Below are positions 2,821 through 64,000 of a stretch of 64,000 bases of DNA, one piece after another. The stretch is taken from NCBI GenBank assembly GCA_911728435.2, contig OU452202.1, forward strand, positions 25,957,135 to 26,021,134. Reading direction: 5' to 3'. Origin of the DNA: Apoderus coryli (taxonomy: Eukaryota; Arthropoda; Insecta; Coleoptera; Attelabidae). A model generated the notes under the pieces. It worked only from the letters and a program-made list of their open reading frames with translations. It was not told the DNA's origin and made no database searches. Made by a program: the position numbers and the translations under genes. The stretch's first letter is position 1; every line of letters begins with the position of its first letter.

Positions 2821-2972
2821 TATAGATAGATAGATATATTTATTCACCATCTTATGTTACATAACATGTATAGTACGTCAAAAAAGAACAAAAATTAACA
2901 AATCAAAGTTACAGCAACAAAGAAAGGCTTACAAACCAATTAAAATAGCAACAACATAAAACAAACTAAAAT

Positions 2973-3782
2973 CTAGGAAAATCTTACAATATCGCTTCTG
3001 AAATAGTTCTCAAAGGTATAAAAAGCTTGAGATATCAAAAATGATTTAATACTTTTGTTAAACTGGACTTCACCAAGGTTCTTTATGTGAGACGGCAGCT
3101 TATTATAAAATTTAACACAATAATAGTCAGAACCTTTTCTAGTCCTCAATAGGCGGTGAAATTCAGGCAATATGTCATTGCGATTTCGCGTACCATAATT
3201 ATGCATATCAGAGTGAAGAGTGAAATGCGAGGCGTTAGTTCGAATGTAGCCAAGACAGTTTAAGATGTACAAGGAAGGCAAAGTAAGTAATCCGTGTTCA
3301 ACAAAATACTTTTTACAGCAGTCACGCCAACCGAGCCCCAACATTGTGCGTAAACATCTCATCTGTAGCTTGAAGATTTTCATTGTATGGGAACTATGTC
3401 CCCAGTTACCATACGACATACGGGAAACAAAATAACCATAATATACCGTCAACAGACTGGCGATTGAAACACTCTGCGCAAGCCTTCTGATGAGATATAT
3501 GACCCTGGACAGCGAGCACCCAAGTTCACGAACATGACTCTCCCAGGTTAATTTAGGATCAAGATGAACCCCAAGGAACTTCACGCGAACATCGCTCTGA
3601 AGATCGATAGGCGCAGAACGCAATGTAAAGTGCATGCTCTGAGTTTTAGCCTGATTCAAACTCAGTTCATTTGCCAGAAACCACTTGCCTATGTCAGTCT
3701 CAACAGCATTAACCAACTCCCCTAAAGGGTCGTTTGGTCGATATCTAATCAGACTAGTTGTGTCGTCAGCAAAGAGGATTAT
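2973..3782 (-). pseudogene. LINE family A reverse transcriptase, C-terminal part (copy 1)
   Basis: The frame reads from the ADD box of the RT (ADDTTSLIRY) through the thumb (KFLGVHLDPKLTW) to the end of the protein (FRSDIVRFS, stop at 2973). Compared with the copies at 42586-44385 and 49851-50645 it lacks two codons in SYG(IL)NWGHSS. Its upstream half lies beyond the retrozyme at 6316-6783. The catalytic ADD triplet sits directly against the insertion boundary. The frame runs on into retrozyme sequence as far as 3836, which is chimeric and not part of the LINE. Confidence 0.88.
3770..3782. repeat. Target-site duplication, left copy (retrozyme)
   Basis: The 13-mer CAAAGAGGATTAT occurs here and again at 6316-6328, flanking the retrozyme array. 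The outermost C may instead belong to the insert, so 12-13 bp is the supported length. Confidence 0.85.
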
Positions 3783-3831
3783 GAATTGGGCTTGTTTAAC
3801 AAAACAAGACTTAAAATCCGAGAGTTTGTCT

Positions 3832-3907
3832 GTCAACCACTATACTTTCACCAGACGGCCGTTTCGTCGATCCACGACTCATCAGTGGTGATCGGTCAGT
3901 AGTTGAC
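3832..3907 (-). ncRNA. Type I hammerhead ribozyme, minus copy 1
   Basis: On the minus strand the catalytic core reads CTGATGA (plus 3885-3879), stem II GTCG/CGAC with loop TGGAT, GAAAC, a minimal stem III with loop GGCC, then the cleavage triplet GTC. The scissile bond lies between 3854 and 3853. Stem I pairs GTCAACTACTG with the distal strand and TCACCA with TGGTGA, leaving an internal loop that could dock with loop II. All invariant core bases are present. The base at 3910, just outside stem I, differs from the other copies. Confidence 0.93.
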
Positions 3908-4164
3908 AGACAAACTCTCGTAAATAATGTGGTATATACCCCACAGGGTACAGAGATGTAAAAGAATGTGTTTGGCGACATCTAGTTTTTTCGTTGGTAG
4001 TACGCCGAGTGAACAACAGTTCCTATATCGGCTGCCTGGGAGGTCTCTGACCCCATGAAGCAACTACCAACACATAGACGCGCCGATACTCCCTTAAGCG
4101 GGATCGCATATATTTGAATTGGGCTTGTTTAACAAAACAAGACTTAAAATCCGAGAGTTTGTCT

Positions 4165-4240
4165 GTCAACCACTATACTTTCACCAGACGGCCGTTTCGT
4201 CGATCCACGACTCATCAGTGGTGATCGGTCAGTAGTTGAC
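4165..4240 (-). ncRNA. Type I hammerhead ribozyme, minus copy 2
   Basis: Same core and stems as the copy at 3832, displaced by exactly 333 bp. Predicted cleavage is between 4187 and 4186 on the minus strand. Confidence 0.93.
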
Positions 4241-4497
4241 AGCCAAACTCTCGTAAATAATGTGGTATATACCCCACAGGGTACAGAGATGTAAAAGAAT
4301 GTGTTTGGCGACATCTAGTTTTTTCGTTGGTAGTACGCCGAGTGAACAACAGTTCCTATATCGGCTGCCTGGGAGGTCTCTGACCCCATGAAGCAACTAC
4401 CAACACATAGACGCGCCGATACTCCCTTAAGCGGGATCGCATATATTTGAATTGGGCTTGTTTAACAAAACAAGACTTAAAATCCGAGAGTTTGTCT

Positions 4498-4573
4498 GTC
4501 AACCACTATACTTTCACCAGACGGCCGTTTCGTCGATCCACGACTCATCAGTGGTGATCGGTCAGTAGTTGAC
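4498..4573 (-). ncRNA. Type I hammerhead ribozyme, minus copy 3
   Basis: Third minus-strand ribozyme, 333 bp from the previous one. Predicted cleavage is between 4520 and 4519. It is the closest minus-strand copy to the inversion axis. Confidence 0.93.
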
Positions 4574-4781
4574 AGCCAAACTCTCGTAAATAATGTGGTA
4601 TATACCCCACAGGGTACAGAGATGTAAAAGAATGTGTTTGGCGACATCTAGTTTTTTCGTTGGTAGTACGCCGAGTGAACAACAGTTCCTATATCGGCTG
4701 CCTGGGAGGTCTCTGACCCCATGAAGCAACTACCAACACATAGACGCGCCGATACTCCCTTAAGCGGGATCGCATATATTT

Positions 4782-4826
4782 GAATTGGGCTTGTTTAACA
4801 AAACAAGACTTAAACAAGCCCAATTC
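4782..4826. repeat. Inversion axis of the retrozyme array
   Basis: Arms GAATTGGGCTTGTTTAA (4782-4798) and TTAAACAAGCCCAATTC (4810-4826) are exact reverse complements around an 11-bp centre. The complementarity then continues outward for about 1 kb on each side, since the two half-arrays are mirror images. Confidence 0.92.
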
Positions 4827-5034
4827 AAATATATGCGATCCCGCTTAAGGGAGTATCGGCGCGTCTATGTGTTGGTAGTTGCTTCATGGGGTCAGAGACC
4901 TCCCAGGCAGCCGATATAGGAACTGTTGTTCACTCGGCGTACTACCAACGAAAAAACTAGATGTCGCCAAACACATTCTTTTACATCTCTGTACCCTGTG
5001 GGGTATATACCACATTATTTACGAGAGTTTGGCT

Positions 5035-5110
5035 GTCAACTACTGACCGATCACCACTGATGAGTCGTGGATCGACGAAACGGCCGTCTGGTGAAAGTAT
5101 AGTGGTTGAC
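5035..5110 (+). ncRNA. Type I hammerhead ribozyme, plus copy 1
   Basis: CTGATGA is at 5057-5063, stem II GTCG/CGAC at 5064-5067 and 5073-5076, GAAAC at 5077-5081, stem III loop GGCC, and GTC ends at 5088, the predicted cleavage site. Stem I strands are 5035-5056 and 5089-5110, pairing 6 bp next to the core and about 11 bp distally. Confidence 0.94.
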
Positions 5111-5367
5111 AGACAAACTCTCGGATTTTAAGTCTTGTTTTGTTAAACAAGCCCAATTCAAATATATGCGATCCCGCTTAAGGGAGTATCGGCGCGTCTA
5201 TGTGTTGGTAGTTGCTTCATGGGGTCAGAGACCTCCCAGGCAGCCGATATAGGAACTGTTGTTCACTCGGCGTACTACCAACGAAAAAACTAGATGTCGC
5301 CAAACACATTCTTTTACATCTCTGTACCCTGTGGGGTATATACCACATTATTTACGAGAGTTTGGCT

Positions 5368-5443
5368 GTCAACTACTGACCGATCACCACTGATGAGTCG
5401 TGGATCGACGAAACGGCCGTCTGGTGAAAGTATAGTGGTTGAC
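5368..5443 (+). ncRNA. Type I hammerhead ribozyme, plus copy 2
   Basis: Repeats the ribozyme at 5035 with a 333-bp offset. Cleavage is predicted after 5421, so processing with the previous copy would release a 333-nt monomer. Confidence 0.94.
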
Positions 5444-5700
5444 AGACAAACTCTCGGATTTTAAGTCTTGTTTTGTTAAACAAGCCCAATTCAAATATAT
5501 GCGATCCCGCTTAAGGGAGTATCGGCGCGTCTATGTGTTGGTAGTTGCTTCATGGGGTCAGAGACCTCCCAGGCAGCCGATATAGGAACTGTTGTTCACT
5601 CGGCGTACTACCAACGAAAAAACTAGATGTCGCCAAACACATTCTTTTACATCTCTGTACCCTGTGGGGTATATACCACATTATTTACGAGAGTTTGGCT

Positions 5701-5776
5701 GTCAACTACTGACCGATCACCACTGATGAGTCGTGGATCGACGAAACGGCCGTCTGGTGAAAGTATAGTGGTTGAC
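5701..5776 (+). ncRNA. Type I hammerhead ribozyme, plus copy 3
   Basis: Third plus-strand copy with an intact core. Predicted cleavage is after 5754. Confidence 0.94.
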
Positions 5777-6033
5777 AGACAAACTCTCGGATTTTAAGTC
5801 TTGTTTTGTTAAACAAGCCCAATTCAAATATATGCGATCCCGCTTAAGGGAGTATCGGCGCGTCTATGTGTTGGTAGTTGCTTCATGGGGTCAGAGACCT
5901 CCCAGGCAGCCGATATAGGAACTGTTGTTCACTCGGCGTACTACCAACGAAAAAACTAGATGTCGCCAAACACATTCTTTTACATCTCTGTACCCTGTGG
6001 GGTATATACCACATTATTTACGAGAGTTTGGCT

Positions 6034-6109
6034 GTCAACTACTGACCGATCACCACTGATGAGTCGTGGATCGACGAAACGGCCGTCTGGTGAAAGTATA
6101 GTGGTTGAC
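6034..6109 (+). ncRNA. Type I hammerhead ribozyme, plus copy 4
   Basis: Fourth plus-strand copy; predicted cleavage after 6087. The partial unit that follows (6159-6315) ends before reaching another ribozyme. Confidence 0.94.
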
Positions 6110-6315
6110 AGACAAACTCTCGGATTTTAAGTCTTGTTTTGTTAAACAAGCCCAATTCAAATATATGCGATCCCGCTTAAGGGAGTATCGGCGCGTCTAT
6201 GTGTTGGTAGTTGCTTCATGGGGTCAGAGACCTCCCAGGCAGCCGATATAGGAACTGTTGTTCACTCGGCGTACTACCAACGAAAAAACTAGATGTCGCC
6301 AAACACATTCTTTTA

Positions 6316-6328
6316 CAAAGAGGATTAT
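6316..6328. repeat. Target-site duplication, right copy (retrozyme)
   Basis: Same 13-mer as at 3770-3782. Reading on from it, the LINE sequence resumes at the codons preceding the ADD box. Confidence 0.85.
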
Positions 6329-6783
6329 ATTTGACTCTTCTTTAAATTTGTATAAATCATTTACGTATATTAAAAACAATAAAGGTCCCAAAACCGACCC
6401 CTGGGGCACACCCCGTAAAACCCTTCGTCTCTCCGAGTATCGTCCCCCATCCAAAATGTGCTGAAAACGATCGCTGAGATAAGAGCCAACCAAGGCAACA
6501 CTGTCAACATCAAAGTTATAGTAAGAGAGTTTCTGAAGAAGGATCTCGTGTGAGACACAGTCAAAAGCATTAGTAAGGTCATAAAAGGAAGCAAAGGTGT
6601 CACAGCCCCGCTCCATGCCATCGGAAACATATTCCAAAAGGTTATTAATTGCAAGAGTAGTAGATCTCTTATTACGAAAGCCATATTGACCTTGCATAAA
6701 GAGATTATTTGCTTCAAAATATTCAGTTATTTGATTTTTAATAATAGACTCAAAGATTTTCGAAAAAATTGGCAAGATCGATC
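6316..6783 (-). pseudogene. LINE family A reverse transcriptase, upstream part (copy 1)
   Basis: Minus-strand RT segment from ILPIFSKIFESIIKNQ through FGFRNKRSTT-like (YGFRNKRSTT), AFDCVSHEILLQKL and the GVPQGSVLGPLLFL box to SNIILF, where the retrozyme begins. It differs from the copy at 42.6 kb by scattered substitutions (for example TNAFDCV for TKAFDCV). The open frame extends artificially into the retrozyme down to 6224 and into unrelated upstream DNA to 6859. Confidence 0.87.
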
Positions 6784-7947
6784 GATTTCTGATATTTGGT
6801 TGAAACGACCCCCGTATATCCTGTTTGTTTTTGGATTCTTTGAGCCAACCTCCAAACAAAAGTCTGCAAGTAAAGGGGGCGTTTCTACTTTCAACTTTAC
6901 TTGCAGAATTTTGTTTAGAGCAAATCTGTTCACTTTATACCCACAAAAAGTTATTTCTTTTATAAGCAAAAATGAACAGGGAATTTAAGAAAAAATAAAA
7001 AAATATATTTATTGTAATGGCGTAAAAATAGGGGCATAAAAAGTGTCACTAACCCCTATAGCATGCCACTGGTTCATTTTTCAATAATATTGATTATGTG
7101 AAAATATGACTTTTTTAAAGAACATAGCGGTCGCGAAATGTTATAAAAATATTTATAGGCGTTTTTGACTTATAGCAAATTTTCGATTTTAAATTTGATC
7201 CTTTGACACCCTGTACTTAGACAACTACCCCCTTTAAGGGTATATGTCCCTATATCAAAATACATGAATTAGCGAGAGCTTTCTGTGGTATATCGTTTTC
7301 GGTCGAATTTAGGAACACCCTGTATATATTTATATAGGATTCCTTCTTATATTAATCATGATTAAAAAAAAATCATACTCATTAAAATCTGATATTAATC
7401 GTGATTTTAATCATCTCAACCCTGTCGCAAATATTACACTTTTCAGATCTATCAAAATTAATTTCTATAAAAATGTTTGAATCTTTCGCCGAAACTGCTT
7501 CCTTTGCTTTTTCATCGCTCGTCAATTTCTGCCCAGCGCAGTTTTTATTTTTAATTTTTGGTACAAATTGAAGTATCAAGCGTTTCTAAAAACTAAGTAG
7601 TTAAGTAGAGCAATATCAGCTACTCAACGTATAATGAAGTAAGCTTTTGAAATTATAATTTTGTTCGTTTTGCTAGTGCTGAAAGTTTGCTAAGTAGCAA
7701 ATCTCTCCTCCGACTGTCTGATGAAATTTCCTTATCAAAGTTTAATATAATTTACCGTCGACGAGACATTGTCGCCGCAAAAGATGAGCACAGAAATACA
7801 CCGAGTGAAACATTGTATTACATAAATGAAAATTTGTTTTGAAACTCTAATAATACTAGGATACGAATATGGTGCATATTTCATAGAGACAAACAGTTAC
7901 TTTGTCGCATAGTATGTGTTCCCTAATCTACTTACACACTACGAGGG
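6784..7947. other. Intergenic, AT-rich
   Basis: No coding signal. A CACCCTGTA motif, which recurs through the window, is at 7316-7324. The short frame at 7382-7579 has no family resemblance. Confidence 0.4.
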
Positions 7948-9979: not shown

Positions 9980-10025
9980 ATGCCACTGATGATGGAACAG
10001 TGAGTTCCGAAACATGCTTGACTAA
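9980..10025 (+). other. Hammerhead-like relic hairpin
   Basis: CTGATGA (9986-9992), a GGAAC/GTTCC hairpin and GAAAC (10009-10013) occur in hammerhead order. One extra base sits between the core and the stem, and the sequence after GAAAC (ATGC) does not give a proper cleavage triplet, so activity is unlikely. One of several such motifs in the window. Confidence 0.45.
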
Positions 10026-10617
10026 GTGAACATCAACATAAAATATTTTGTGGTGTAGACGTCTTTGTTTTTGCAGAAACTATATTTGTTTTGCAAAATA
10101 TTTTTTTATTTTTCAACAAAATGATGAAGTGGGCACCCTGTATAGAAAATGTTACTTTGTATATCACATTCCCTTCCATTTCCTTTTATTCAAATGGTTT
10201 TCGGTGTATGTTTTCCACTACATAAATATTACATCAAGATATTTTCGCTTCTGTGCGAAAAGCTGGGCTTAAAACAATGAAACACCTGAATGTTTAGGTG
10301 TTGGAATGATGCTTTTGTTATTTTTTTATTCTTTTTTTTATTATTTGGGGAATAGGTATATGTGTATATGGTGTATTGCGGCCGTCAAGGCATCCACATA
10401 ACCATATTTCAAACATACATTGCCATCGTGTGTAGGTGTAAAGTCTGCAAAATTTCGATTATTAAGTTATATCGTGAAAAGTTTATTACAATAAATTGGT
10501 AAATGAAAGTCTGTCGCATCCACTAAATTGTTTTAATTATTAAAAACATGTTTCAACCCTAGCCAGGGTCTGAAGATGCTGTACCGGGCGGGAGTGTAAA
10601 TAATTAGTGAACACATT
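10026..10617. other. Intergenic with transposon-end motifs
   Basis: CACCCTG at 10134-10140. A CCCTAGCCAGGG palindrome near 10559 recurs at about 11504, on the far side of the next foldback element. Confidence 0.4.
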
Positions 10618-11640: not shown

Positions 11641-12662
11641 GTTTTTAGTAATTAAAACTACTTTGTTAAAATTTATTAAAATAGTTTTACGGTTTCTTAG
11701 AGTCTGCTAGATAGTGATAAGCTATTTATTTTGTTTGGAAATTCTAATATGTAAATAATCATTTTGATTTAAAAAACCTATAGTTATGTATTTTGGGTTT
11801 GTAAACCAAATGTTCATACACTGTATGTACAGCGTGGGCAAATTTCAATGTTTTTATACGGTATTGCCTCAAAACCGTAATAGTTGAGCAAAACTAAGTA
11901 ACACGTTGCGTTCCATTTTTTTCTTTTGCTATTACAGTTTAGGCTATACCGTATAAAAAAATCGAAATATGCCCACTATTTACACTAGAGTTTTGATGAA
12001 AAAATAAGCAAAACGTATTTCCTGGTCACTGAATGAAACCTTCAAACCAAACCCCATGAATATCAAAAGAAAGAAATGTTGGATTAAGGTTCAGGAGACC
12101 TTGTCCAAGACGGTGACTATGAGAACGACCCTTGGCGCATTGCTTCATATCCGTCTGTGTTTTCTAATTTCGGCTTTCCACCAAGCGGACCGGACAAAAA
12201 CAAAACTCAAATTCGGTCCGTTTGTAACAGTCCGCAAACAAAACTAAAACTGTTTGCGAACTTTTTTTTATTACATTTTTTCAATTATTTATCAAGTCAA
12301 TAAAACTTCTCAATTTAATCTGAATTATTAACCCAATAAACAGAAGTAATTTGTCAAAAGCATAAACAGAGGTACATTAAATTAACACACAAAAATACTA
12401 CATTTTGAAGATCTTCCTTTCTTTTTTAGGCTCCTACTCCACAGTTGACTCTTGCCATTGCTTAGTAGCAACTTTATATTATTTAAATTCCACCAGCACC
12501 AAGGAGGTTTTATTGACCAAACGGAACCATTTGCATAGGGATTTGATGCTGTTCTGTCAATAACCCTTTGTCCGGCACCATTTGTTTCCTCTCGTTTGGA
12601 TTCCAAACTTCGAAACAGCATTATCGGGGACCACAGGACTAACAGTGCATGTATTTGACAAA
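11641..12662. other. Intergenic, nothing recognised
   Basis: Two short frames (12056-12247 plus, 12382-12621 minus) have no recognisable motif and no coding-like context. Confidence 0.4.
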
Positions 12663-13256
12663 GTTGTCACAATGGAGTTGTCAGAGAGCTCTTACAAAAA
12701 TACAATTTACAAAGGCCGTTAAATCTTTCAGAATTATACATCTCGTTGCAAATGGGTATAATAACTGGTGTGTTCTTTAATTTGATGAGCAGTTAACTGT
12801 TCTCTTGGACTATAAATTAACAGTTTGTTGGCTGTTAGATTTATTGTGCTCAGTTTTGAAGTTGTCACAATGGAGTTGTCAGAGAGCTCTTACAAAAATA
12901 CAATTTACAAAGGCCGTTAAATCTTTCAGAATTATACATCTCGTTGCCAATGGGTATAATAACTGGTGTGTTCTTTAATTTGATGAGCAGTTAACTGTTC
13001 TCTTGGACTATAAATTAACAGTTTGTTGGCTGTTAGATTTATTGTGCTCAGTTTTGAAGTTGTCACAATGGAGTTGTCAGAGAGCTCTTACAAAAATACA
13101 ATTTACAAAGGCCGTTAAATCTTTCAGAATTATACATCTCGTTGCCAATGGGTATAATAATTGGTGTGTTCTTTAATTTGATGAGCAGTTAACTGTTCTC
13201 TTGAACTATAAATTAACAGTTTGTTGGCTGTTAGATTTATTGTGCTCAGTTTTGAA
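12663..13256. repeat. Tandem repeat, three 198-bp units
   Basis: The motif GTTGTCACAATGGAG starts units at 12663, 12861 and 13059, exactly 198 bp apart, each ending in GTGCTCAGTTTTGA. The units differ by only a few substitutions (CAAATGGG/CCAATGGG, AACTGG/AATTGG, TGGACT/TGAACT). No open frame runs through all three. Confidence 0.92.
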
Positions 13257-25290: not shown

Positions 25291-26415
25291 ACTTTACAAA
25301 TTTTTATAATTTGCATGATGGTAACACATGTGGACATTGACTTTTGTTATCCTTCAAAGCCAATATCAGCATTTTTATTTGTTCAAAATTAGTTACGTAG
25401 CAAATGAGCCACAATTGACCGTATCACTTCAGTCCAACTGAACATAGAATTGAGCTTTAGCTGTGCTAATTTAATAGACTTTGCTTCCTCTCAAAATTGT
25501 TCTACTCCAACCCAACCGTGTATACAGCCACCACATTGAAATCATCATCAATCATCTTAAAGATTTGATACCGAATATTTTAAATAACCTAGAATTCATT
25601 CTCTTCGGATGATCAGAACCACACGGAAGGTCATAGAGGAGATATTTACTTGAATAATATTAGAAAACACTGCGTGTTTTTTATAAGATTTCCCAACCAA
25701 AGACCTGCACTAATTAACCTTACCATAGTACCTACTAAACTTGCCGTTTAAAATTGATCGATAATCGACACTTTCACCAAAAAAATGTTTTAAATTTCGA
25801 CGTACATTGCGCTAACACTGTTAGCATCCTCAGGAAGAATAAATTATTAAAGTTCACTGAAAAAAATTCTAAAAATGAACCCTAGTAAATAATTATTTGG
25901 CTTTTATTTGTTTAACTTAAACAAAATTTATTTGACTCAAATAAACAGTGTTTGTCAGGAATAAATAGAGTTATTTGATTTTTTAAATATATTTATTTAA
26001 CCTGGGCTGCTTTGACAGAAAAAAATATTTATTTAATTTAAATAACAGATCAGAGTTAATTCATGGTTATTTGAAACAAGTCCATCGTTATTTGAATCAA
26101 ATACATAATAATAATAAAATGAGCCGACGCCCATGGCTGTTGGGGATTCAACAATCGAACAAATCATATATTTAATATATTTTTTTTTCAGAATAAACAA
26201 ATATTTATTTATTCCAAGTAGCAGCACCTTTGGGCCAAGTACATGGAACCTTTCTTCTAAATGACTCTAGTTAGTTCAAGCAAACAAATATATCCTTACA
26301 TTTTCGGGACTTGTTAACAAGTAAGTATAAGTACTAAGTCAAATAAATATTTATTTAAATCAAATACTCGTACATATTATTTTATGAAATAATCCATTCA
26401 AAGAGGAGCGATGAT
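25291..26415. other. AT-rich intergenic with TTATTTGA motif cluster
   Basis: Between 25908 and 26400 the motif TTATTTGA and near-palindromic TTATTTGAATCAAATA variants recur several times. A hammerhead-like relic on the minus strand covers 25794-25836 (CCTGAGGATGCTAACAG...TTAGC...CGAAAT order). No gene is seen; the frame at 26033-26227 is unsupported. Confidence 0.45.
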
Positions 26416-26870
26416 TAATATATAAATCAAACGGCGCCGGCGTCTGCTCCACAAAACAAATATATTTCTATATCAAAAATCAAGGCACATTGCCTATGTC
26501 AGTCAGACATGTTTCGAGAAAATTAAATTTTCATCATCAGTGACAATCAAGTACAAGATGAACAATTTCAGCATTATGCCATCAAATAATGTTAATTTCT
26601 AATTTAGTTTAAATTTTTATTTTAATTTTGAATTCATATAAAACACAGTGTTTTAACTTTAATTTACATAAAATCTTCACATAACCTTTTTCACAAAATG
26701 AATATGTTACATTAGTAAAACTGAAATTGTTCATCTTGTACTTGATTGTCACTGATGATGAGAATTTAATTTTCTCGAAACATGTCTGACTGACATAGGC
26801 AATGTGCCTTGATTTTTGATATAGAAATATATTTGTTTTGTGGAGCAGACGCCGTTTGATTTATATATTA
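26416..26870. mobile_element. Hairpin MITE with hammerhead-like motifs in both arms
   Basis: Ends TAATATATAAATCAAAC (26416) and GTTTGATTTATATATTA (ending 26870) are inverted. The arms of about 157 bp (26416-26572 and 26714-26870) pair almost throughout, around a 140-bp AT-rich loop. The right arm contains CTGATGA (26752-26758), a GAGAA/TTCTC hairpin, GAAAC (26777-26781) and GTC (26784-26786) followed by TGAC, which can pair with GTCA before the core. The left arm has the same motif on the minus strand (26501-26548). A one-base insertion before stem II departs from the hammerhead consensus. Confidence 0.82.
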
Positions 26871-27757
26871 AATAAATATTAGTTGAATGTTTCAAATAAA
26901 CCATATATTTGTCTCAAGTACATGGGTTGTTTGACGTATACCGAAGAAATATTTGTTTGGTTCAACTCCATTTTTTTTTTATCCAAACAAACCTTTTTTT
27001 CAGTGTAGATGAATAGATAACGGTTGTCTACTCCATGGAGTAGATTTGCTTTTGACCTGGGATTCATTATGTAACCATTTGCAATAAAGTAGATACATAA
27101 AAGCAGCTCTAATAATACGATTCCTACATTCAAACATTTCTATTTCTATTCATTTGTGCTACCTGAAGCGAGTGACGTAACGCGACCACAACATCAAGTT
27201 CGTCTGTCACACATATAGCCGACGCGACGTATTCCACCGTGTGTGTATGTTCCTATTTCCTTGCCACATTATCCCCTTAGCCTGAATAAAATGGAAAAGT
27301 AAAATGCACACAAACGAATGAGACAACAACAACAAGAAAAAAACTGGAGTAAAATTGAGGGGATTTTTGGTGAAAATGTGCGACAGATATCTATGGGGTT
27401 ACGAATAAGTGTTAAATTTGATTAGAAAATCTGTGGTTGCGGCTTTATTTGTGCCTCGAAGTTCGATATTAGGAAAATACGAAACAAGACATTTTCGCCT
27501 CTCTGTGCTGATGCTTAACAAAGTATAAATAAACTGATATCAGTGTGTTAATCCAAGGAATTTGGCACAAGTTTGTATTGCTTTGTTGGATTTTATGTGA
27601 CACATAATATCGATAAGCTTTATACAGTCTTATCGATTTTTTAGTGGATGGATTTAAATCGCTCTCATTTTTTGCATGCAGTAAACAGATAAGAGTTTTT
27701 TAAACATTTCTTTGGTTCGTTGATATAAAGCTTATGGCACTGTTAATTTAACTTTCT
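26871..27757. other. Intergenic, nothing recognised
   Basis: A minus frame at 26879-27133 lacks any recognisable motif. Confidence 0.4.
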
Positions 27758-42559: not shown

Positions 42560-44465
42560 ATCCTTCAAAATCAGCATCAAAGTTAATGTTATGGAAAAAA
42601 TGTTGTTGTTTGTATGAACTTTCTAAGGCCAAAAGAAGGGCTTATGAGGAGTATATTGCATCCGCTATTAATAGGCCTGCTGCTGTGTGGAGACTGGTCA
42701 AGGATTGGGAATCAACTCCAAATCTCGGGACAGCTGAGAACTTGACTGCGCATATTTTAAATGACTACTTTACAACTGCGGCTGATGATATCATAAAACA
42801 GCTACCAGCCACATCGGTCACTTTTGAGAAATATATGTCTCGCACTAGAGCTGCTGGATTTAGTTTGAGAACGGTAACCTTTAATGAAGTACGTGAAAAA
42901 CTATCAGGTATGAAAAACACAAAAAGCTCGGATTGTTATGAGCTTAATGTTAGGATTATTGGGACTTTAAAGAATCTGCTAGTGGTGCCGCTTAGTAAGT
43001 TGATAAACCATTGCATTGGTGACGCTGTATTTCCGGCGGTCTTGAAGAAGGCAAGGGTTATTCCAATTTACAAAAATAAAGGATCGGGTGATGGTCCCAG
43101 TAACTACCGACCAATATCGATCTTGCCAATTTTTTCGAAAATCTTTGAGTCTATTATTAAAAATCAAATAACTGAATATTTTGAAGCAAATAATCTCTTT
43201 ATGCAAGGTCAATATGGCTTTCGTAATAAGAGATCTACTACTCTTGCAATTAATAACCTTTTGGAATATGTTTCGGATGGCATGGAGCGGGGCTGTGACA
43301 CCTTTGCTTTCTTTTATGACCTCACTAAGGCTTTTGACTGTGTCTCACACGAGATACTTCTTCAGAAACTCTCTTACTATAACTTTAATGTTGACAGTGT
43401 TGCCTTGGTTGGCTCTTATCTCAGCGATCGTTTTCAGCACGTTTTGTATGGGGGACGATACTCGGAGAGACGAAGGGTTGGACGGGGTGTGCCCCAGGGG
43501 TCGGTTTTGGGACCTTTATTGTTTTTAATATACGTAAATGATTTATACAAATTTCAAGAAGAGTCAAATATAATCGTCTTTGCTGACGACACAACTAGTC
43601 TGATTAGATATCGACCAAACGACCCTTTAGGGGAGTTGGTTAATGCTGTTGGGACTGACATAGCCAATTGGTTTCTGGCAAATGAACTGAGCTTGAATCA
43701 GGCTAAAACTCAGAGTATGAACTTTACATTGCGTTCTGCGCCTATCGATCTTCAGAGCGATGTTCGCGTGAAGTTCCTTGGGGTTCATCTTGATCCTAAA
43801 TTAACCTGGTAGAGTCATGCTCGAGAACTTGGGTGCTCGCTGTCCAGGGTCATATATCTGATCAGAAGGCTTGCGCAGAGTGTTTCAATCGCCAGTCTGT
43901 TGACGGTATATCATGGTTATTTTGTTTCCCGTATGTCGTATGGTATTTTGAACTGGGGACATAGTTCCCATGCAATGAAAATCTTCAAGCTACAGAGGAG
44001 ATGTTTACGTACAATGTTGGGGCTCGGTTGGCGTGACTGCTGTAAAAAGTATTTTGTTGAACATGGACTACTTACTTTGCCTTCCTTGTACATCTTAAAC
44101 TGTCTTGGCTACATTCGAACCAATGCCTCGCATTTCACTCTTCACTCTGATATGCATAATTATGGTACGCGAAATCGCAATGACATATTGCCTGAGTTTC
44201 ACCGCCTGTTCAGGACTAGGAAAGGTTCTGACTATTATTGTGTCAAATTTTATAATAAGCTGCCGTCTCACATAAAGAACCTTGGTGAAGTCCAATTTAC
44301 CAAATGTATTAAATCATTTTTGATATCTCAAACTTTTTATACCTTTGAGGACTATTTCAGAAGCGATATTGTAAGATTTTTTTAGATTTTAGTTTGTTTT
44401 ATGTGCTATTTTAATTTGTTTGTAAGCCTTTCTTTGTTGCTGTAACTTTGATTAATTTTTGTTAT
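42560..44465 (+). mobile_element. LINE family A, copy 2 (longest copy)
   Basis: Covers the connector region before RT through the C-terminus and the first part of the 3' UTR, to about 44465. The UTR loses homology before the (TATC)n tail seen in copy 3. The 5' edge near 42560 is approximate. The endonuclease domain is absent. Confidence 0.85.
42586..44385 (+). pseudogene. LINE family A reverse transcriptase, single nonsense codon
   Basis: About 600 codons in one frame. Order: basic helical connector (SKAKRRAYEEYIASAINRP), RVIPIYKNKGSGDGPSNYRP (fingers), YGFRNKRSTT, FFYDLTKAFDCVSHEILL (first catalytic Asp), GVPQGSVLGPLLFLIYVNDL, VFADDTTSLI (catalytic Asp pair), KFLGVHLDPKLTW, then TAG at 43810-43812 where copies 1 and 3 have GAG, and continuation in frame through SRMSYGILNWGHSSHAMKIF, HNYGTRNRNDILPEF and the end FRSDIVRFF. 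All RT catalytic residues are intact. The only visible lesion in this part is the nonsense codon. The N-terminal half of the protein is lost. Confidence 0.9.
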
Positions 44466-49830: not shown

Positions 49831-49850
49831 CATGGTGCCCCAAACTCGGC

Positions 49851-50645
49851 ACAACTAGTCTGATTAGATATGGACCAAACGACCCTTTAGGGGAGTTGGT
49901 TAATGCTGTGGAGACTAACATAGGCAATTGGTTTCTGGCAAATGAACTGAGCTTGAATCAGGCTAAAACTCAGAGCATGAACTTTATTTTGCGTTCTGCG
50001 CCTATCGATCTTCAGAGCGATGTTCGCGTGAAGTTCCTTGGTGTTCATCTTGATCCTAAATTAACCTGGGAGAGTCATGTTCGAGAGCTTGGGTGCTCGC
50101 TGTCCAGGGTCATATATCTCGTCAGAAAGCTTGCGCAGAGTGTTTCAATTGCCAGTCTGTTGACGGTATATTACGGTTATTTTGTTTCCCGTATGTCGTA
50201 TGGTATTTTGAACTGGGGACATAGTTCCCATGCAATGAAAATCTTTAAGCTACAGAAGAGATGTTTACGTACAATGTTGGGGCTCGGTTGGCGTGACTGC
50301 TGTAAAAAATATTTTGTTGAACACGGACTACTTACTTTGCCTTCCTTGTACATCTTAAACTGTCTTGGCTATATTCGAACCAATGCCTCGCATTTCACTA
50401 TTCACTCTGATATGCATAATTATGGTACGCGAAATCGAAATGACATATTGTCTGAATTTCACCGCCTATTGAGGACTAGGAAAGATTCTGACTATGATTG
50501 TGTTAAATTTTATAATAAGCTGCCGTCTCACATAAAGAACCTTGGTGAAGTCCAGTTTAACAAAAGTATTAAATCATTTTTGATATCTCAAGCTTTTTAT
50601 ACCTTTGAGGACTATTTCAGAAGCGATATTGTAAGATTTTTCTAG
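49851..50645 (+). pseudogene. LINE family A C-terminal coding region (copy 3)
   Basis: Reads TTSLIRYGPNDPLGELVNAV from 49851, then LANELSLNQAKTQSMNF, KFLGVHLDPKLTWESHVREL, LNWGHSSHAMKIFKLQKRCL, RNRNDILSEFHRL and ends FRSDIVRFF at 50645. No stop or frameshift, and GAG is present where copy 2 has TAG. It lacks the RT catalytic residues because of truncation. Confidence 0.85.
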
Positions 50646-50799
50646 ATTTTAGTTTATTTTATGTTGTTGCTATTTTAATTTGTTTGTAAGCCTTTCTTTG
50701 TTGCTGTAACTTTGATTGATTTTTGTTCTTTTTTGACGTACCTACTATACATGTTTTGTAACATAATATGGTGAATAAATATATATCTATCTATCTATC
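49851..50799 (+). mobile_element. LINE family A, copy 3
   Basis: A 5'-truncated copy beginning just after the ADD box and ending in (TATC)n. The target shows CGGC on both sides (49847-49850 and 50799-50802), a very short duplication. It supplies the full 3' UTR of the family, with AATAAA in GTGAATAAATATAT. Confidence 0.88.
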
Positions 50800-54522: not shown

Positions 54523-57500
54523 CGTCGATTATGTCATTTACATCGTTTATGTCATTTACGTCGTTTATGTCATTTACATCGTTTATGTCATTTACATCGT
54601 TTATGTCATTTACGTCGTTTATGTCATTTACGTCGTTTATGTCATTTACATCGTTTATGTCATTTACGTGGTTTATGTCATTTACATCGTTTATGTCATT
54701 TACGTGGTTTATGTCATTTACATCGTTTATGTCATTTACGTGGTTTATGTCATTTACATCGTTTATGTCATTTACGTCGATTATGTCATTTACATCGTTT
54801 ATGTCATTTACGTCGTTTATGTCATTTACATCGTTTATGTCATTTACGTCGTTTATGTCATTTACATCGTTTATGTCATTTACATCGTTTATGTCATTTA
54901 CATCGTTTATGTCATTTACGTCGTTTATGTCATTTACATCGTTTATGTCATTTACATCGTTTATGTCATTTACGTCGTTTATGTCATTTACGTCGTTTAT
55001 GTCATTTACGTCGTTTATGTCATTTACGTCGATTATGTCATTTACATCGTTTATGTCATTTACGTCGTTTATGTCATTTACATCGTTTATGTCATTTACG
55101 TCGTTTATGTCATTTACGTCGATTATGTCATTTACATCGTTTATGTCATTTACGTCGTTTATGTCATTTACATCGTTTATGTCATTTACGTCGTTTATGT
55201 CATTTACATCGTTTATGTCATTTACATCGTTTATGTCATTTACATCGTTTATGTCATTTACGTCGTTTATGTCATTTACATCGTTTATGTCATTTACATC
55301 GTTTATGTCATTTACGTCGTTTATGTCATTTACGTCGTTTATGTCATTTACATCGTTTATGTCATTTACGTCGTTTATGTCATTTACATCGTTTATGTCA
55401 TTTACGTCGTTTATATCATGTACATCGTTTATGTCATTTACGTCGTTTATGTCATGTACATCGTTTATGTAATTTACGTCGTTTATGTCATTTACATCGT
55501 TTATGTCATTTACGTCGTTTATGTCATGTACATCGTTTATGTCATTTACGTCGTTTATGTCATTTACGTCGTTTATGTCATGTACATCGTTTATGTCATT
55601 TACGTCGTTTATGTCATTTACATCGTTTATGTCATTTACGTCGTTTATGTCATGTACAGCGTTTATGTCATTTACGTCGTTTATGTCATTTACATCGTTT
55701 TTGTCATTTACATCGTTTATGTCATTTACATCGTTTATGTCATTTACGTCGTTTATGTCATGTACAGCGTTTATGTCATTTACGTCGTTTATGTCATTTA
55801 CATCGTTTTTGTCATTTACATCGTTTATGTCATTTACATCGTTTATGTCATTTACGTCGTTTATGTCATTTACATCGTTTATGTCATTTACGTGGTTTAT
55901 GTCATTTACATCGTTTATGTCATTTACGTGGTTTATGTCATTTACATCGTTTATGTCATTTACGTCGTTTATGTCATTTACATCGTTTATGTCATTTACG
56001 TCGTTTATGTCATTTACATCGTTTATGTCATTTACGTCGTTTATGTCATTTACATCGTTTATGTCATTTACGTCGTTTATGTCATTTACATCGTTTATGT
56101 CATTTACATCGTTTATGTCATTTACGTCGTTTATGTCATTTACATCGTTTATGTCATTTACGTCGTTTATGTCATTTACATCGTTTTTGTCATTTACATC
56201 GTTTATGTCATTTACATCGTTTATGTCATTTACGTCGTTTATGTCATTTACATCGTTTTTGTCATTTACATCGTTTATGTCATTTACATCGTTTATGTCA
56301 TTTACGTTGTTTATGTCATTTACATCGTTTATGTCATTTACGTCGTTTATGTCATGTACATCGTTTATGTCATTTACATCGTTTATGTCATTTACGTCGT
56401 TTATGTCATGTACAGCGTTTATGTCATTTACGTCGTTTATGTCATTTACATCGTTTTTGTCATTTACATCGTTTATGTCATTTACATCGTTTATGTCATT
56501 TACGTCGTTTATGTCATTTACATCGTTTATGTCATTTACGTGGTTTATGTCATTTACATCGTTTATGTCATTTACGTGGTTTATGTCATTTACATCGTTT
56601 ATGTCATTTACGTCGTTTATGTCATTTACATCGTTTATGTCATTTACGTCGTTTATGTCATTTACATCGTTTATGTCATTTACGTCGTTTATGTCATTTA
56701 CATCGTTTATGTCATTTACGTCGTTTATGTCATTTACATCGTTTATGTCATTTACATCGTTTATGTCATTTACGTCGTTTATGTCATTTACATCGTTTAT
56801 GTCATTTACGTCGTTTATGTCATTTACATCGTTTTTGTCATTTACATCGTTTATGTCATTTACATCGTTTATGTCATTTACGTTGTTTATGTCATTTACA
56901 TCGTTTATGTCATTTACGTCGTTTATGTCATTTACATCGTTTATGTCATTTACGTCGTTTATGTCATTTACATCGTTTATGTCATTTACGTCGTTTATGT
57001 CATTTACATCGTTTATGTCATTTACATCGTTTATGTCATTTACGTCGTTTATGTCATTTACATCGTTTATGTCATTTACGTCGTTTATGTCATTTACATC
57101 GTTTTTGTCATTTACATCGTTTATGTCATGTACATCATTTATGTCATTTACGTCCTTTATGTCATTTACATCGTTTATGTCATTTACGTCGTTTATGTCA
57201 TTTACATCGTTTATGTCATTTACGTCGTTTATGTCATTTACATCGTTTATGTCATTTACGTCGTTTATGTCATTTACATCGTTTTTGTCATTTACATCGT
57301 TTATGTCATTACGTCGTTTATGTCATGTACATCGTTTATGTCATTTACGTCGTTTATGTCATTTACATCGTTTATGTCATTTACGTCGTTTATGTCATTT
57401 ACATCGTTTATGTCATTTACGTCGTTTATGTCATTTACGTCGTTTATGTCATTTACATCGTTTATGTCATTTACGTCGTTTATGTCATTTACATCGTTTA

Positions 57501-58379
57501 TGTCATTTACGTCGTTTATGTCATTTACATCGTTTATGTCATTTACATCGTTTATGTCATTTACGTCGTTTATGTCATTTACATCGTTTATGTCATTTAC
57601 GTCGTTTATGTCATTTACATCGTTTATGTCATTTACGTCGTTTATGTCATTTACATCGTTTATGTCATTTACGTCGTTTATGTCATTTACATCGTTTATG
57701 TCATTTACATCGTTTATGTCATTTACGTCGTTTATGTCATTTACATCGTTTATGTCATTTACATCGTTTATGTCATTTACATCGTTTATGTCATTTACGT
57801 CGTTTATGTCATTTACATCGTTTATGTCATTTACGTCGTTTATGTCATTTACATCGTTTATGTCATTTACATCGTTTATGTCATTTACGTCGTTTATGTC
57901 ATTTACATCGTTTATGTCATTTACGTCGTTTATGTCATGTACATCGTTTATGTCATTTACATCGTTTATGTCATTTACGTCGTTTATGTCATGTACATCG
58001 TTTATGTCATTTACGTCGTTTATGTCATTTACATCGTTTTTGTCATTTACATCGTTTATGTCATGTACATCATTTATGTCATTTACGTCCTTTATGTCAT
58101 TTACATCGTTTATGTCATTTACGTCGTTTATGTCATTTACATCGTTTATGTCATTTACGTCGTTTATGTCATTTACATCGTTTTTGTCATTTACATCGTT
58201 TATGTCATGTACATCATTTATGTCATTTACGTCCTTTATGTCATTTACATCGTTTATGTCATTTACGTCGTTTATGTCATTTACATCGTTTATGTCATTT
58301 ACGTCGTTTATGTCATTTACATCGTTTATGTCATGTACATCGTTTATGTCATTTACGTCGTTTATGTCATTTACATCGT

Positions 58380-61300
58380 TTATGTCATTTACGTCGTTTA
58401 TGTCATTTACATCGTTTTTGTCATTTACATCGTTTATGTCATGTACATCATTTATGTCATTTACGTCCTTTATGTCATTTACATCGTTTATGTCATTTAC
58501 GTCGTTTATGTCATTTACATCGTTTATGTCATGTACATAGTTTATGTCATTTACGTCGTTTATGTCATTTACATCGTTTTTGTCATTTACATCGTTTATG
58601 TCATGTACATCATTTATGTCATTTACGTCCTTTATGTCATTTACATCGTTTATGTCATTTACGTCGTTTATGTCATTTACATCGTTTATGTCATTTACGT
58701 CGTTTATGTCATTTACATCGTTTATGTCATGTACATCGTTTATGTCATTTACGTCGTTTATGTCATTTACATCGTTTTTGTCATTTACATCGTTTATGTC
58801 ATGTACATCATTTATGTCATTTACGTCCTTTATGTCATTTACATCGTTTATGTCATTTACGTCGTTTTTGTCATTTACATCGTTTATGTCATGTACATCA
58901 TTTATGTCATTTACGTCCTTTATGTCATTTACATCGTTTATGTCATTTACGTCGTTTATGTCATTTACATCGTTTATGTCATGTACATCGTTTATGTCAT
59001 TTACGTCGTTTATGTCATTTACATCGTTTTTGTCATTTACATCGTTTATGTCATGTACATCATTTATGTCATTTACGTCCTTTATGTCATTTACATCGTT
59101 TATGTCATTTACGTCGTTTATGTCATTTACATCGTTTATGTCATTTACGTCGTTTATGTCATTTACATCGTTTTTGTCATTTACATCGTTTATGTCAGGT
59201 ACATCATTTATGTCATTTACGTCCTTTATGTCATTTACATCGTTTATGTAATTTACGTCGTTTATATCATTTGCATCGTTTTTGTCATTTACATCGTTTA
59301 TGTCATTTACGTCGTTTATGTCATTTACATCGTTTATGTCATTTACATCGTTTATGTCATTTACGTCGTTTATGTCATTTACATCGTTTTTGTCATTTAC
59401 ATCGTTTATGTCATTTACATCGTTTATGTCATTTACGTCGTTTATGTCATTTACATCGTTTATGTCATTTACGTGGTTTATGTCATTTACATCGTTTATG
59501 TCATTTACGTCGTTTATGTCATTTACATCGTTTATGTCATTTACGTCGTTTATGTCATTTACATCGTTTATGTCATTTACATCGTTTATGTCATTTACGT
59601 CGTTTATGTCATTTACATCGTTTATGTCATTTACGTCGTTTATGTCATTTACATCGTTTATGTCATTTACATCGTTTATGTCATTTACGTCGTTTATGTC
59701 ATTTACGTCGTTTATGTCATGTACATCGTTTATGTCATTTACGTCGTTTATGTCATTTACGTCGTTTATGTCATTTACATCGTTTTTGTCATTTGCGTCG
59801 TTTATGTCATGTACATCGTTTATGTCATTTACGTCGTTTATGTCATTTACATCGTTTATGTCATTTACGTCGTTTATGTCATGTACAGCGTTTATGTCAT
59901 TTACGTCGTTTATGTCATTTACATCGTTTTTGTCATTTACATCGTTTATGTCATTTACGTCGTTTATGTCATTTACATCGTTTATGTCATTTACGTCGTT
60001 TATGTCATTTACATCGTTTATGTCATTTACGTCGTTTATGTCATTTACGTCGTTTTTGTCATTTACATCGTTTATGTCATTTACGTCGTTTATGTCATTT
60101 ACGTCGTTTATGTCATTTACATCGTTTCTGTCATTTTGTCGTTTATGTCATTTACATCGTTTATGTCATTTACGTCGTTTATGTCATTTACATCGTTTAT
60201 GTCATTTACGTCGTTTATGTCATTTACATCGTTTTTGCCATTTACATCGTTTATGTCATTTACATCGTTTATGTCATTTACGTCCTTTATGTCATTTACA
60301 TCGTTTATGTCATTTACGTCGTTTATGTCATTTACATCGTTTATGTCATTTACGTCGTTTATGTCATTTACATCGTTTATGTCATGTACATCGTTTATGT
60401 CATTTACGTCGTTTATGTCATTTACGTCGTTTATGTCATTTACATCGTTTTTGTCATTTACATCGTTTATGTCATGTACATCATTTATGTCATTTACGTC
60501 CTTTATGTCATTTACATCGTTTATGTCATTTACGTCGTTTATGTCATTTACATCGTTTATGTCATGTACATAGTTTATGTCATTTACGTCGTTTATGTCA
60601 TTTACATCGTTTTTGTCATTTACATCGTTTATGTCATGTACATCATTTATGTCATTTACGTCCTTTATGTCATTTACATCGTTTATGTCATTTACGTCGT
60701 TTATGTCATTTACATCGTTTATGTCATTTACGTCGTTTATGTCATTTACATCGTTTATGTCATGTACATCGTTTATGTCATTTACGTCGTTTATGTCATT
60801 TACATCGTTTTTGTCATTTACATCGTTTATGTCATGTACATCATTTATGTCATTTACGTCCTTTATGTCATTTACATCGTTTATGTCATTTACGTCGTTT
60901 TTGTCATTTACATCGTTTATGTCATGTACATCATTTATGTCATTTACGTCCTTTATGTCATTTACATCGTTTATGTCATTTACGTCGTTTATGTCATTTA
61001 CATCGTTTATGTCATGTACATCGTTTATGTCATTTACGTCGTTTATGTCATTTACATCGTTTTTGTCATTTACATCGTTTATGTCATGTACATCATTTAT
61101 GTTATTTACGTCCTTTATGTCATTTACATCGTTTATGTCATTTACGTCGTTTATGTCATTTACATCGTTTATGTCATTTACGTCGTTTATGTCATTTACA
61201 TCGTTTTTGTCATTTACATCGTTTATGTCATGTACATCATTTATGTCATTTACGTCCTTTATGTCATTTACATCGTTTATGTAATTTACGTCGTTTATAT

Positions 61301-62330
61301 CATTTGCATCGTTTTTGTCATTTACATCGTTTATGTCATTTACGTCGTTTATGTCATTTACATCGTTTATGTCATTTACATCGTTTATGTCATTTACGTC
61401 GTTTATGTCATTTACATCGTTTTTGTCATTTACATCGTTTATGTCATTTACATCGTTTATGTCATTTACGTCGTTTATGTCATTTACATCGTTTATGTCA
61501 TTTACGTGGTTTATGTCATTTACATCGTTTATGTCATTTACGTCGTTTATGTCATTTACATCGTTTATGTCATTTACGTCATTTATGTCATTTACATCGT
61601 TTATGTCATTTACATCGTTTATGTCATTTACGTCGTTTATGTCATTTACATCGTTTATGTCATTTACGTCGTTTATGTCATTTACATCGTTTATGTCATT
61701 TACATCGTTTATGTCATTTACGTCGTTTATGTCATTTACGTCGTTTATGTCATGTACATCGTTTATGTCATTTACGTCGTTTATGTCATTTACGTCGTTT
61801 ATGTCATTTACATCGTTTTTGTCATTTGCGTCGTTTATGTCATGTACATCGTTTATGTCATTTACGTCGTTTATGTCATTTACATCGTTTATGTCATTTA
61901 CGTCGTTTATGTCATGTACAGCGTTTATGTCATTTACGTCGTTTATGTCATTTACATCGTTTTTGTCATTTACATCGTTTATGTCATTTACGTCGTTTAT
62001 GTCATTTACATCGTTTATGTCATTTACGTCGTTTATGTCATTTACATCGTTTATGTCATTTACGTCGTTTATGTCATTTACGTCGTTTTTGTCATTTACA
62101 TCGTTTATGTCATTTACGTCGTTTATGTCATTTACGTCGTTTATGTCATTTACATCGTTTATGTCATTTTGTCGTTTATGTCATTTACATCGTTTATGTC
62201 ATTTACGTCGTTTATGTCATTTACATCGTTTATGTCATTTACGTCGTTTATGTCATTTACATCGTTTTTGCCATTTACATCGTTTATGTCATTTACATCG
62301 TTTATGTCATTTACGTCGTTTATGTCATTT
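58380..62330. repeat. Higher-order duplication inside the satellite, 2033-bp offset
   Basis: About 58380-60300 matches about 60413-62330 at a constant offset of 2033 bp (113 units minus one base). Shared markers are TACATAG at 58533/60566, TTTATATCATTTGCATCG at 59261/61294, TCATTTTGTC at 60131/62164 and TTTTTGCCATTTAC at about 60232/62265. Differences are few, for example CAGGTACATC at about 59195, GTTATTTACG at about 61101 and TTTCTGTC at 60125. The boundaries are approximate. Confidence 0.85.
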
Positions 62331-63674
62331 ACATCGTTTATGTCATTTACGTCGTTTATGTCATTTACGTCGTTTATGTCATGTACATCGTTTATGTCAT
62401 TTACATCGTTTATGTCATTTACGTCGTTTATGTCATTTACGTCGTTTATGTCATGTACATCGTTTATGTCATTTACGTCGTTTATGTCATTTACATCGTT
62501 TATGTCATTTACGTCGTTTATGTCATTTACATCGTTTATGTCATTTACGTCGTTTATGTCATGTACAGCGTTTATGTCATTCACGTCGTTTATGTCATTT
62601 ATATCGTTTTTGTCTTTTACATCGTTTATGTCATTTACGTCGTTTATGTCATTTACATCGTTTATGTCATTTACGTCGTTTATGTCATTTACGTCGTTTA
62701 TGTCATTTACATCGTTTATGTAATTTACGTCGTTTATGTCATTTACGTCGTTTATGTCATTTACATCGTTTTTGTCATTTACATCGTTTGTCATTTACAT
62801 CGTTTATGTCATTTACATCGTTTATGTCATTTACGTCGTTTATGTCATGTACATCGTTTATGTCATTTACGTCGTTTATGTCATTTACATCGTTTATGTC
62901 ATTTACGTCGTTTATGTCATGTACATCGTTTATGTCATTTACGTCGTTTATGTCATGTACATCGTTTATGTCATTTACGTCGTTTATGTCATTTACATCG
63001 TTTATGTCATTTACGTCGTTTATGTCATGTACAGCGTTTATGTCATTTACGTCGTTTATGTCATTTACATCGTTTTTGTCATTTACATCGTTTATGTCAT
63101 TTACGTCGTTTATGTCATTTACATCGTTTATGTCATTTACGTCGTTTATGTCATTTACATCGTTTATGTCATTTACGTCGTTTATGTCATTTACGTCGTT
63201 TTTGTCATTTACATCGTTTATGTCATTTACGTCGTTTATGTCATTTACGTCGTTTATGTCATTTACATCGTTTATGTCATTTACGTCGTTTATGTCATTT
63301 ACATCGTTTATGTCATTTACGTCGTTTATGTCATTTACATCGTTTATGTCATTTACGTCGTTTATGTCATTTACATCGTTTTTGCCATTTACATCGTTTA
63401 TGTCATTTACATCGTTTATGTCATTTACGTCGTTTATGTCATTTACATCGTTTATGTCATTTACGTCGTTTATGTCATTTACGTCGTTTATGTCATGTAC
63501 ATCGTTTATGTCATTTACATCGTTTATGTCATTTACGTCGTTTATGTCATTTACGTCGTTTATGTCATGTACATCGTTTATGTCATTTACGTCGTTTATG
63601 TCATTTACATCGTTTATGTCATTTACGTCGTTTATGTCATTTACATCGTTTATGTCATTTACGTCGTTTATGTC
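61900..63674. repeat. Second higher-order duplication, offset about 1114 bp
   Basis: Variant monomers in about 61900-62560 recur in about 63013-63674: ATGTACAGCG at 61914/63027, TTTTTGCCATTTAC at about 62265/63379 and ATGTACATCG at 62381/63495. The offset is 1113-1114, changing by the single-base deletion near 62167. Confidence 0.7.
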
Positions 63675-64000
63675 ATTTACATCGTTTATGTCATTTACGT
63701 CGTTTATGTCATTTACATCGTTTATGTCATTTACGTCGTTTATGTCATTTACATCGTTTATGTCATTTACATCGTTTATGTCATTTACGTCGTTTATGTC
63801 ATTTACATCGTTTTTGTCATTTACATCGTTTATGTCATTTACGTCGTTTATGTCATTTACATCGTTTATGTCATGTATGTCGTTTATGTCATTTACATCG
63901 TTTATGTCATTTACGTCGTTTATGTCATTTACATCGTTTTTGTCATTTACATCGTTTATGTCATTTACGTCGTTTATGTCATTCACATCGTTTATGTCAT

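Follow-up and report, generated by a model that had tools for sequence, protein, structure and literature searches.

Opposed retrozyme multimers within one target-site duplication: a candidate twin-primed insertion from circular RNA in an insect LINE

Introduction

Tandem repeats carrying type I hammerhead ribozymes are known from many invertebrate phyla, and insects are named among the hosts, though without details (PMC7229834). According to the published model for these retrozymes, tandem cDNA is produced from RNA circles by a rolling-circle mode, and the same paper favours Penelope-like elements as their movers (PMC7229834). The animal repeats themselves are described as showing no motif that would reveal which autonomous element is used (PMC7761336). 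In Nematostella, hammerhead repeats are flanked by 15-bp duplications, which were likened to those of LINEs (PMC4918200).

Two further systems are relevant here because their insertions can be inverted. In the rotifer Adineta vaga, inverted Penelope copies are reported to lie mostly head-to-head, with palindromes at the junctions and duplications of 8, 9 and 10 bp, and the single case of a non-LTR element in that study came without a duplication (PMC3846280). Hammerheads in Penelope-like elements have been reported as well, in papers other than the rotifer study (PMC3846280). The 5' inversions of L1 have been attributed to priming at both nicked strands, and most are accompanied by duplications of 10-20 bp; apart from L1 in human cells, a single Nimb-2 insert is the only inversion case in that study (PMC4245944).

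Here, we analysed a 64-kb stretch of DNA from Apoderus coryli (hereafter the window), in which a short array of 333-bp hammerhead units interrupts a LINE. The 333-nt unit fits the metazoan non-LTR retrozymes as described in PMC7229834 and, given that type I hammerhead repeats are known from many phyla, it is of an already known kind. The arrangement of the units is the subject of the following analysis.

Results and discussion

The array occupies positions 3783-6317 (2,535 bp) and is made up of two opposed strings of 333-bp units that meet head to head. When the boundaries were set by extension against one reference unit, the left half (3783-4814, minus strand as sense) comprised 1032 bp or 3.10 units and the right half (4810-6317, plus strand as sense) 1508 bp or 4.53 units, the latter without any substitution relative to that reference; Tandem Repeats Finder placed 333-bp units at 3782-4814 and 4810-6317. 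Both halves have the five nucleotides TTAAA at the inversion junction (4810-4814) in common, and a central microhomology of at least 5 nt has a chance probability of 0.1% or 0.5%, depending on how the junction is counted. A single substitution was found across the whole array, at 3910 in the outermost left unit, and the near-identity of all units fits one monomer that was copied many times. The array ends in partial units without a tail on either side. Counted from the predicted ribozyme cut, the outer ends lie at monomer nucleotides 71 and 230 and the inner ends of the halves at nucleotides 39 and 55 (16 nt apart, a proximity with a chance of about 10%), so that no array end coincides with the cut itself. 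The GC content of the unit is 45.6%, below the 50% that PMC7229834 gives in its text for metazoan retrozymes and slightly over the stricter 45% in one of its figure legends. The longest reading frame lying wholly within the array spans 56 amino acids, and no long frame that could encode a reverse transcriptase with a GIY-YIG endonuclease is present there.

Seven identical type I hammerheads with complete cores are present. Three are on the minus strand (3848-3891, 4181-4224 and 4514-4557, with predicted cuts at 3854/3853, 4187/4186 and 4520/4519, respectively) and four on the plus strand (5051-5094, 5384-5427, 5717-5760 and 6050-6093, with predicted cuts after 5088, 5421, 5754 and 6087). By our own assignment, the motif consists of a 6-bp stem I prolonged by long flanking arms, a 4-bp stem II with a 5-nt loop and a 2-bp stem III closed by the loop GGCC. 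PMC7229834 likens a 2-bp stem III with a tetraloop to the hammerheads of invertebrates and describes a palindromic tetraloop for the axolotl. The substitution at 3910 is located distally in the arm that prolongs stem I, where it appears to convert a G-A mismatch into a pair.

A Hammerhead_1 covariance search had been proposed as a check in an earlier note on this DNA. Its outcome was split: at Rfam gathering thresholds, we obtained no match in the whole window, while a permissive scan, which covered 3700-6400 and 6400-54500, recovered all seven motifs in 3700-6400 as full-model matches with 33.8 bits (E 5.2e-6), 0.2 bit below the Rfam cut-off of 34. In the same region, microRNA families also matched the central palindrome (best E 7.3e-6), the three best of them 23 to 38 bits below their own cut-offs. 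Since such matches reach similar E-values, the E-value of the hammerhead is not decisive by itself, and the case is instead carried by the near-cut-off score combined with the complete core: a 32-base core pattern matched seven times in the window and not once in 100 dinucleotide-preserving shuffles. On the basis of the covariance match and the shuffles, we rejected a chance motif. The 333-nt circle folds with -117.0 kcal/mol (z -5.9; none of 150 shuffles was equally stable), and 63% of the monomer nucleotides are paired, less than the 70% given in PMC4918200. For a local 97-nt segment and for the circle, an alternative fold is 8.7 kcal/mol better than the hammerhead fold under a model that leaves tertiary contacts aside, which makes slow or dimeric cleavage possible.

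The observation that the earlier note had made from the letters of the sequence holds. Its retrozyme array is confirmed with a right end that moves from 6315 to 6317, and the head-to-head layout, with the ribozymes of three units pointing one way and of four the other, is reproduced by the three minus-strand and four plus-strand cores. The seven complete type I hammerheads it listed were recovered both by the core pattern (7/7) and as full-model matches, in keeping with its identification of a retrozyme, and the cut it predicted after 5088 falls at the GUC position. Its view that the near-identity of the units reflects recent activity agrees with the single substitution across 2,535 bp. The partial units at the array ends, the target-site duplication and the empty site come in addition to what that note contains.

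The array interrupts a LINE copy on the minus strand (2900-6859), whose reverse-transcriptase frame lies on both sides of it (open reading frames 2973-3836 and 6224-6859, both minus) and which is 95-97% identical to two other copies in the window. It is flanked by a 13-bp target-site duplication, the left copy of which (3770-3782) is identical to the right one (6316-6328). The first two bases of the right copy also continue the unit, and the outer junctions share one nucleotide with the target on the left and two on the right. By a simple count, a duplication of this length would arise by chance with a probability of about 2e-7. A LINE paralogue on the plus strand (43116-44453; open reading frame 42586-43812, RVT_1, E 1e-32) lacks the insertion and provides the empty site: after the flanks were rejoined with one copy of the 13 bp, they formed a gap-free alignment over 400 bp with the LINE at about 43.3-43.9 kb, in which 13 positions mismatched, one of them within the duplicated stretch. 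The similarity of the third LINE copy (49847-50717) stops about 17 bp short of the insertion point, and this copy is uninformative on the empty site. The array is one clean, recent insertion, and the duplication together with the empty site indicates a single event that postdates the divergence of these LINE copies. As for the host LINE itself, the best 120 of 6,795 protein matches of its reverse transcriptase include a top three of 51-53% identity. Eight of the 120 listed carry an organism, namely seven from beetles (Acanthoscelides, 46%; Callosobruchus, three entries with 48, 40 and 35%; Photinus, 39%; Tribolium, 37%; Gonioctena, 42%) plus a single entry labelled as a Rickettsia endosymbiont of the weevil Ceutorhynchus (40%). 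These relatives lend indirect support to the insect genome named in the earlier note and make a beetle the probable host.

Assembly artefacts can take the form of perfect palindromes, and a head-to-tail insertion misassembled into an inverted form, for example by a long read turned back on itself, would fit the head-to-head layout. However, the inversion is bounded by the 13-bp duplication with different halves of one LINE outside, the two halves are unequal (3.10 versus 4.53 units) and an empty site exists. We thus regard an artefact, the rival that the earlier note itself had raised, as highly improbable. The duplication and the empty site also speak against satellite DNA that arose in place. 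Hammerhead satellites do occur in insects, as described for pDo500 in Dolichopoda cave crickets (PMC2837043), but a short array placed cleanly inside a LINE within a target-site duplication, with no match to the unit at E <0.3 elsewhere in the 64-kb window, makes ordinary satellite DNA in place of a mobile element barely credible. A third possibility is that a head-to-tail array was partly inverted after its insertion, by recombination or repair between the repeats. Tandem repeats recombine, and the central microhomology would also fit end joining; however, given a single substitution in 2,535 bp, little time was available for such a rearrangement, and the inversion would have to begin exactly at the array edge, sparing the duplication and the purity of both halves. 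A rearrangement at the DNA level therefore appears improbable to us.

What can be read directly from the locus are opposed tandem multimers of one monomer, a 13-bp duplication, an empty site and a 5-nt microhomology. We interpret them as the trace of a single recent retrozyme insertion of the metazoan non-LTR type, generated by target-primed reverse transcription from both nicks on a circular RNA, and assign this reading a probability of roughly 0.55. Following this proposal, transcripts would cut themselves at the GUC site and be ligated to 333-nt circles. A target-primed reverse transcriptase, supplied in trans by a Penelope-like element or a LINE, would cut the two strands of the host LINE at positions 13 bp apart, and the 3' end at each nick would serve as a primer on the circle. 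Synthesis would then run round the template about 3.1 times for one half and 4.5 times for the other, before the resulting cDNA multimers were joined via the 5-nt microhomology TTAAA.

Three properties of the array point in this direction. The RNA 3' sides of both halves face outwards and the 5' sides meet at the centre; read as cDNA, the halves thus carry the RNA 3' sides at their outer edges, so both syntheses should have begun at the edges and run inwards, and this geometry is that of twin priming. In known twin-primed inversions of L1, a single linear RNA gives rise to both parts, with no sequence repeated between them, and a poly(A) tail is present. From a linear RNA, twin-primed halves would not cover the same sequence repeatedly, while here both halves repeat one sequence, 3.1 and 4.5 times, which argues for a template that was either circular or an uncut multimer. 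Finally, the lack of an end at the predicted cut argues against a linear, cut monomer as template. Twin priming accounts for the orientation, for the repeated coverage by both halves and for ends away from the ribozyme cut, although a linear multimer that had not been cut could also have served as the template.

The layout could also have been produced by copying back. A single target-primed reaction from the right would have run for about 4.5 rounds before the 3' end of the cDNA switched template via TTAAA, jumping either to a site one unit upstream in the same cDNA or to an antisense RNA, so that the shorter left half was synthesised and joined to the left flank. The right half can indeed serve as template for the left one (1032 bp with one mismatch, with 1191 bp available from the switch point). 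The opposite direction, in which the right half is copied from the left, was rejected as impossible, since it would account for 1016 of 1508 bp at best. Copying back has a precedent in that the authors of the rotifer study explain the palindromic head-to-head Penelope copies by self-priming on an antisense template and not by twin priming (PMC3846280). By our own reading, the substitution at 3910, from a G-A mismatch to a pair, is what a template switch within a hairpin would yield; as one event, it is no proof. Against copying back stands the extra switching step that it needs, whereas the orientation follows directly from priming at both nicks. We consider copying back rather unlikely and rank twin priming first, as it requires, in our judgement, one step fewer.

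Which enzyme would prime from both nicks? For a Penelope-like element speaks that the array has the pattern of such elements, i.e. head-to-head copies, a palindromic junction and a short target-site duplication. A purified Penelope-like protein from a lizard cuts and extends both strands and starts at one RNA region on both of them (PMC11167929). A single start site of this type for both halves was tried and failed, as the outer starts are 159 nt apart (nucleotide 71 versus 230). The pattern of L1-type twin priming is present as well, with an inversion, a duplication of 13 bp that falls in the range of 10-20 bp and a 5-nt microhomology. The 15-bp duplications of the Nematostella repeats likewise speak for a LINE; the near-restriction of inversions to L1 in human cells in the L1 study speaks against one. 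RNAs moved by LINEs often have a tail or a LINE-like 3' end; the unit is without similarity to the LINE copies in the window, and a poly(A) tail is absent at both array ends. Either a Penelope-like enzyme or a LINE may have been the mover.

Other hammerhead-like elements and repeats in the window

An inverted-repeat element at 26415-26871 has 139-nt arms that are 98% complementary, with a hammerhead-like core in each arm, again head to head. The right-arm motif (26752) combines a 4-bp stem I, a 5-bp stem II behind an extra T and the self-complementary ACATGT as stem III; it passes a descriptor scan in which 30 first-order resampled windows yielded nothing. In the left-arm motif (26540, minus strand), the core is present with an unpaired stem II, and the descriptor scan is failed. 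The permissive Rfam scan gave no hammerhead match for the element, no target-site duplication was found around it and its fold is unremarkable (z -0.8). It is possibly a Penelope-like minimal hammerhead pair. A weakly similar motif at 9986-10030 (73% over 45 bp, E 0.07) shares the CTGATGATG...CGAAACATG frame with it, has a stem II that differs yet is paired (GGAAC/GTTCC) and, by our own reading, no proper cleavage triplet, and may be a diverged relative of this element. Apart from these, an 18-bp tandem repeat (TCGTTTATGTCATTTACA; reported periods of 36 and 54) takes up about 9.5 kb at 54525-64000, reaching the window end, and a 198-bp unit is present in three copies (12661-13256, 99% matching), for which Rfam gave no match at E up to 1.

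Relatives were also sought in other sequence collections. The exact core pattern of the array hammerhead had no match among viral contigs. A looser version matched five viral contigs, once each; none of the five had an Rfam match at gathering thresholds and 26-33 nt were common with the unit, and we judged them unrelated. Among genome contigs, the looser pattern remained without match, as did the 333-bp unit in a distant-similarity search against plasmids. A pattern built for the second hammerhead-like family (26415-26871) hit two viral contigs inside open reading frames, and both hits were judged to be due to chance.

Comparison with known systems

The value of the insertion lies in what it preserves: with almost no divergence, it retains both outer ends and the junction of the inversion, along with the duplication and the empty site, and is therefore nearly a direct trace of a single event. 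The shape of this scar suggests a route by which such RNAs are turned back into DNA, and we judge the layout to be telling, even with one copy only and the main step inferred. If our reading is right, other genomes can be surveyed for such footprints, each consisting of opposed multimers in one duplication, a central microhomology and outer ends away from the ribozyme cut. We further propose, tentatively, that animal retrozymes in general enter the genome by rolling-circle twin priming, with head-to-head multimers in one duplication as the footprint of the circle, a proposal whose chances we put a little short of even. If true, a set of such footprints would identify the enzyme that mobilises animal retrozymes.

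With the metazoan non-LTR retrozymes as described, the array shares the type I hammerhead, tandem units of about 150-450 bp, a GC content <50%, the lack of any described LTR, duplications of >4 bp when present and a highly paired monomer (PMC7229834). What sets it apart is that a single target-site duplication encloses two opposed multimers. The main text of PMC7229834 contains none of the words 'inverted', 'head-to-head' and 'orientation', and our searches of open-licence papers turned up no description of inverted retrozyme arrays. The plant LTR retrozymes are likewise non-autonomous hammerhead elements that spread through circular RNA, but they are reported with type III hammerheads, LTRs and 4-bp duplications (PMC4918200). 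Compared by its description only, pDo500 of Dolichopoda cave crickets is also an insect tandem repeat with a hammerhead per unit, yet it is a satellite family for which that description includes no inverted insertion (PMC2837043). The 5' inversions of L1 resemble the array in that an inversion lies in one duplication of 10-20 bp and is joined by microhomology (PMC4245944). The Penelope-like elements of Adineta vaga, with their inverted pseudo-LTRs, share the head-to-head copies, the palindromes at the junctions and the short duplications (PMC3846280). The array is unlike them in its lack of an RT-GIY-YIG frame, its 333-bp unit, its canonical two-pair stem III, its many tandem units on both sides and its 13-bp duplication. 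The layout is unusual for retrozymes as described so far, yet like one known for Penelope-like elements, and opposed multimers within one duplication are an unusual form that is informative on the mechanism.
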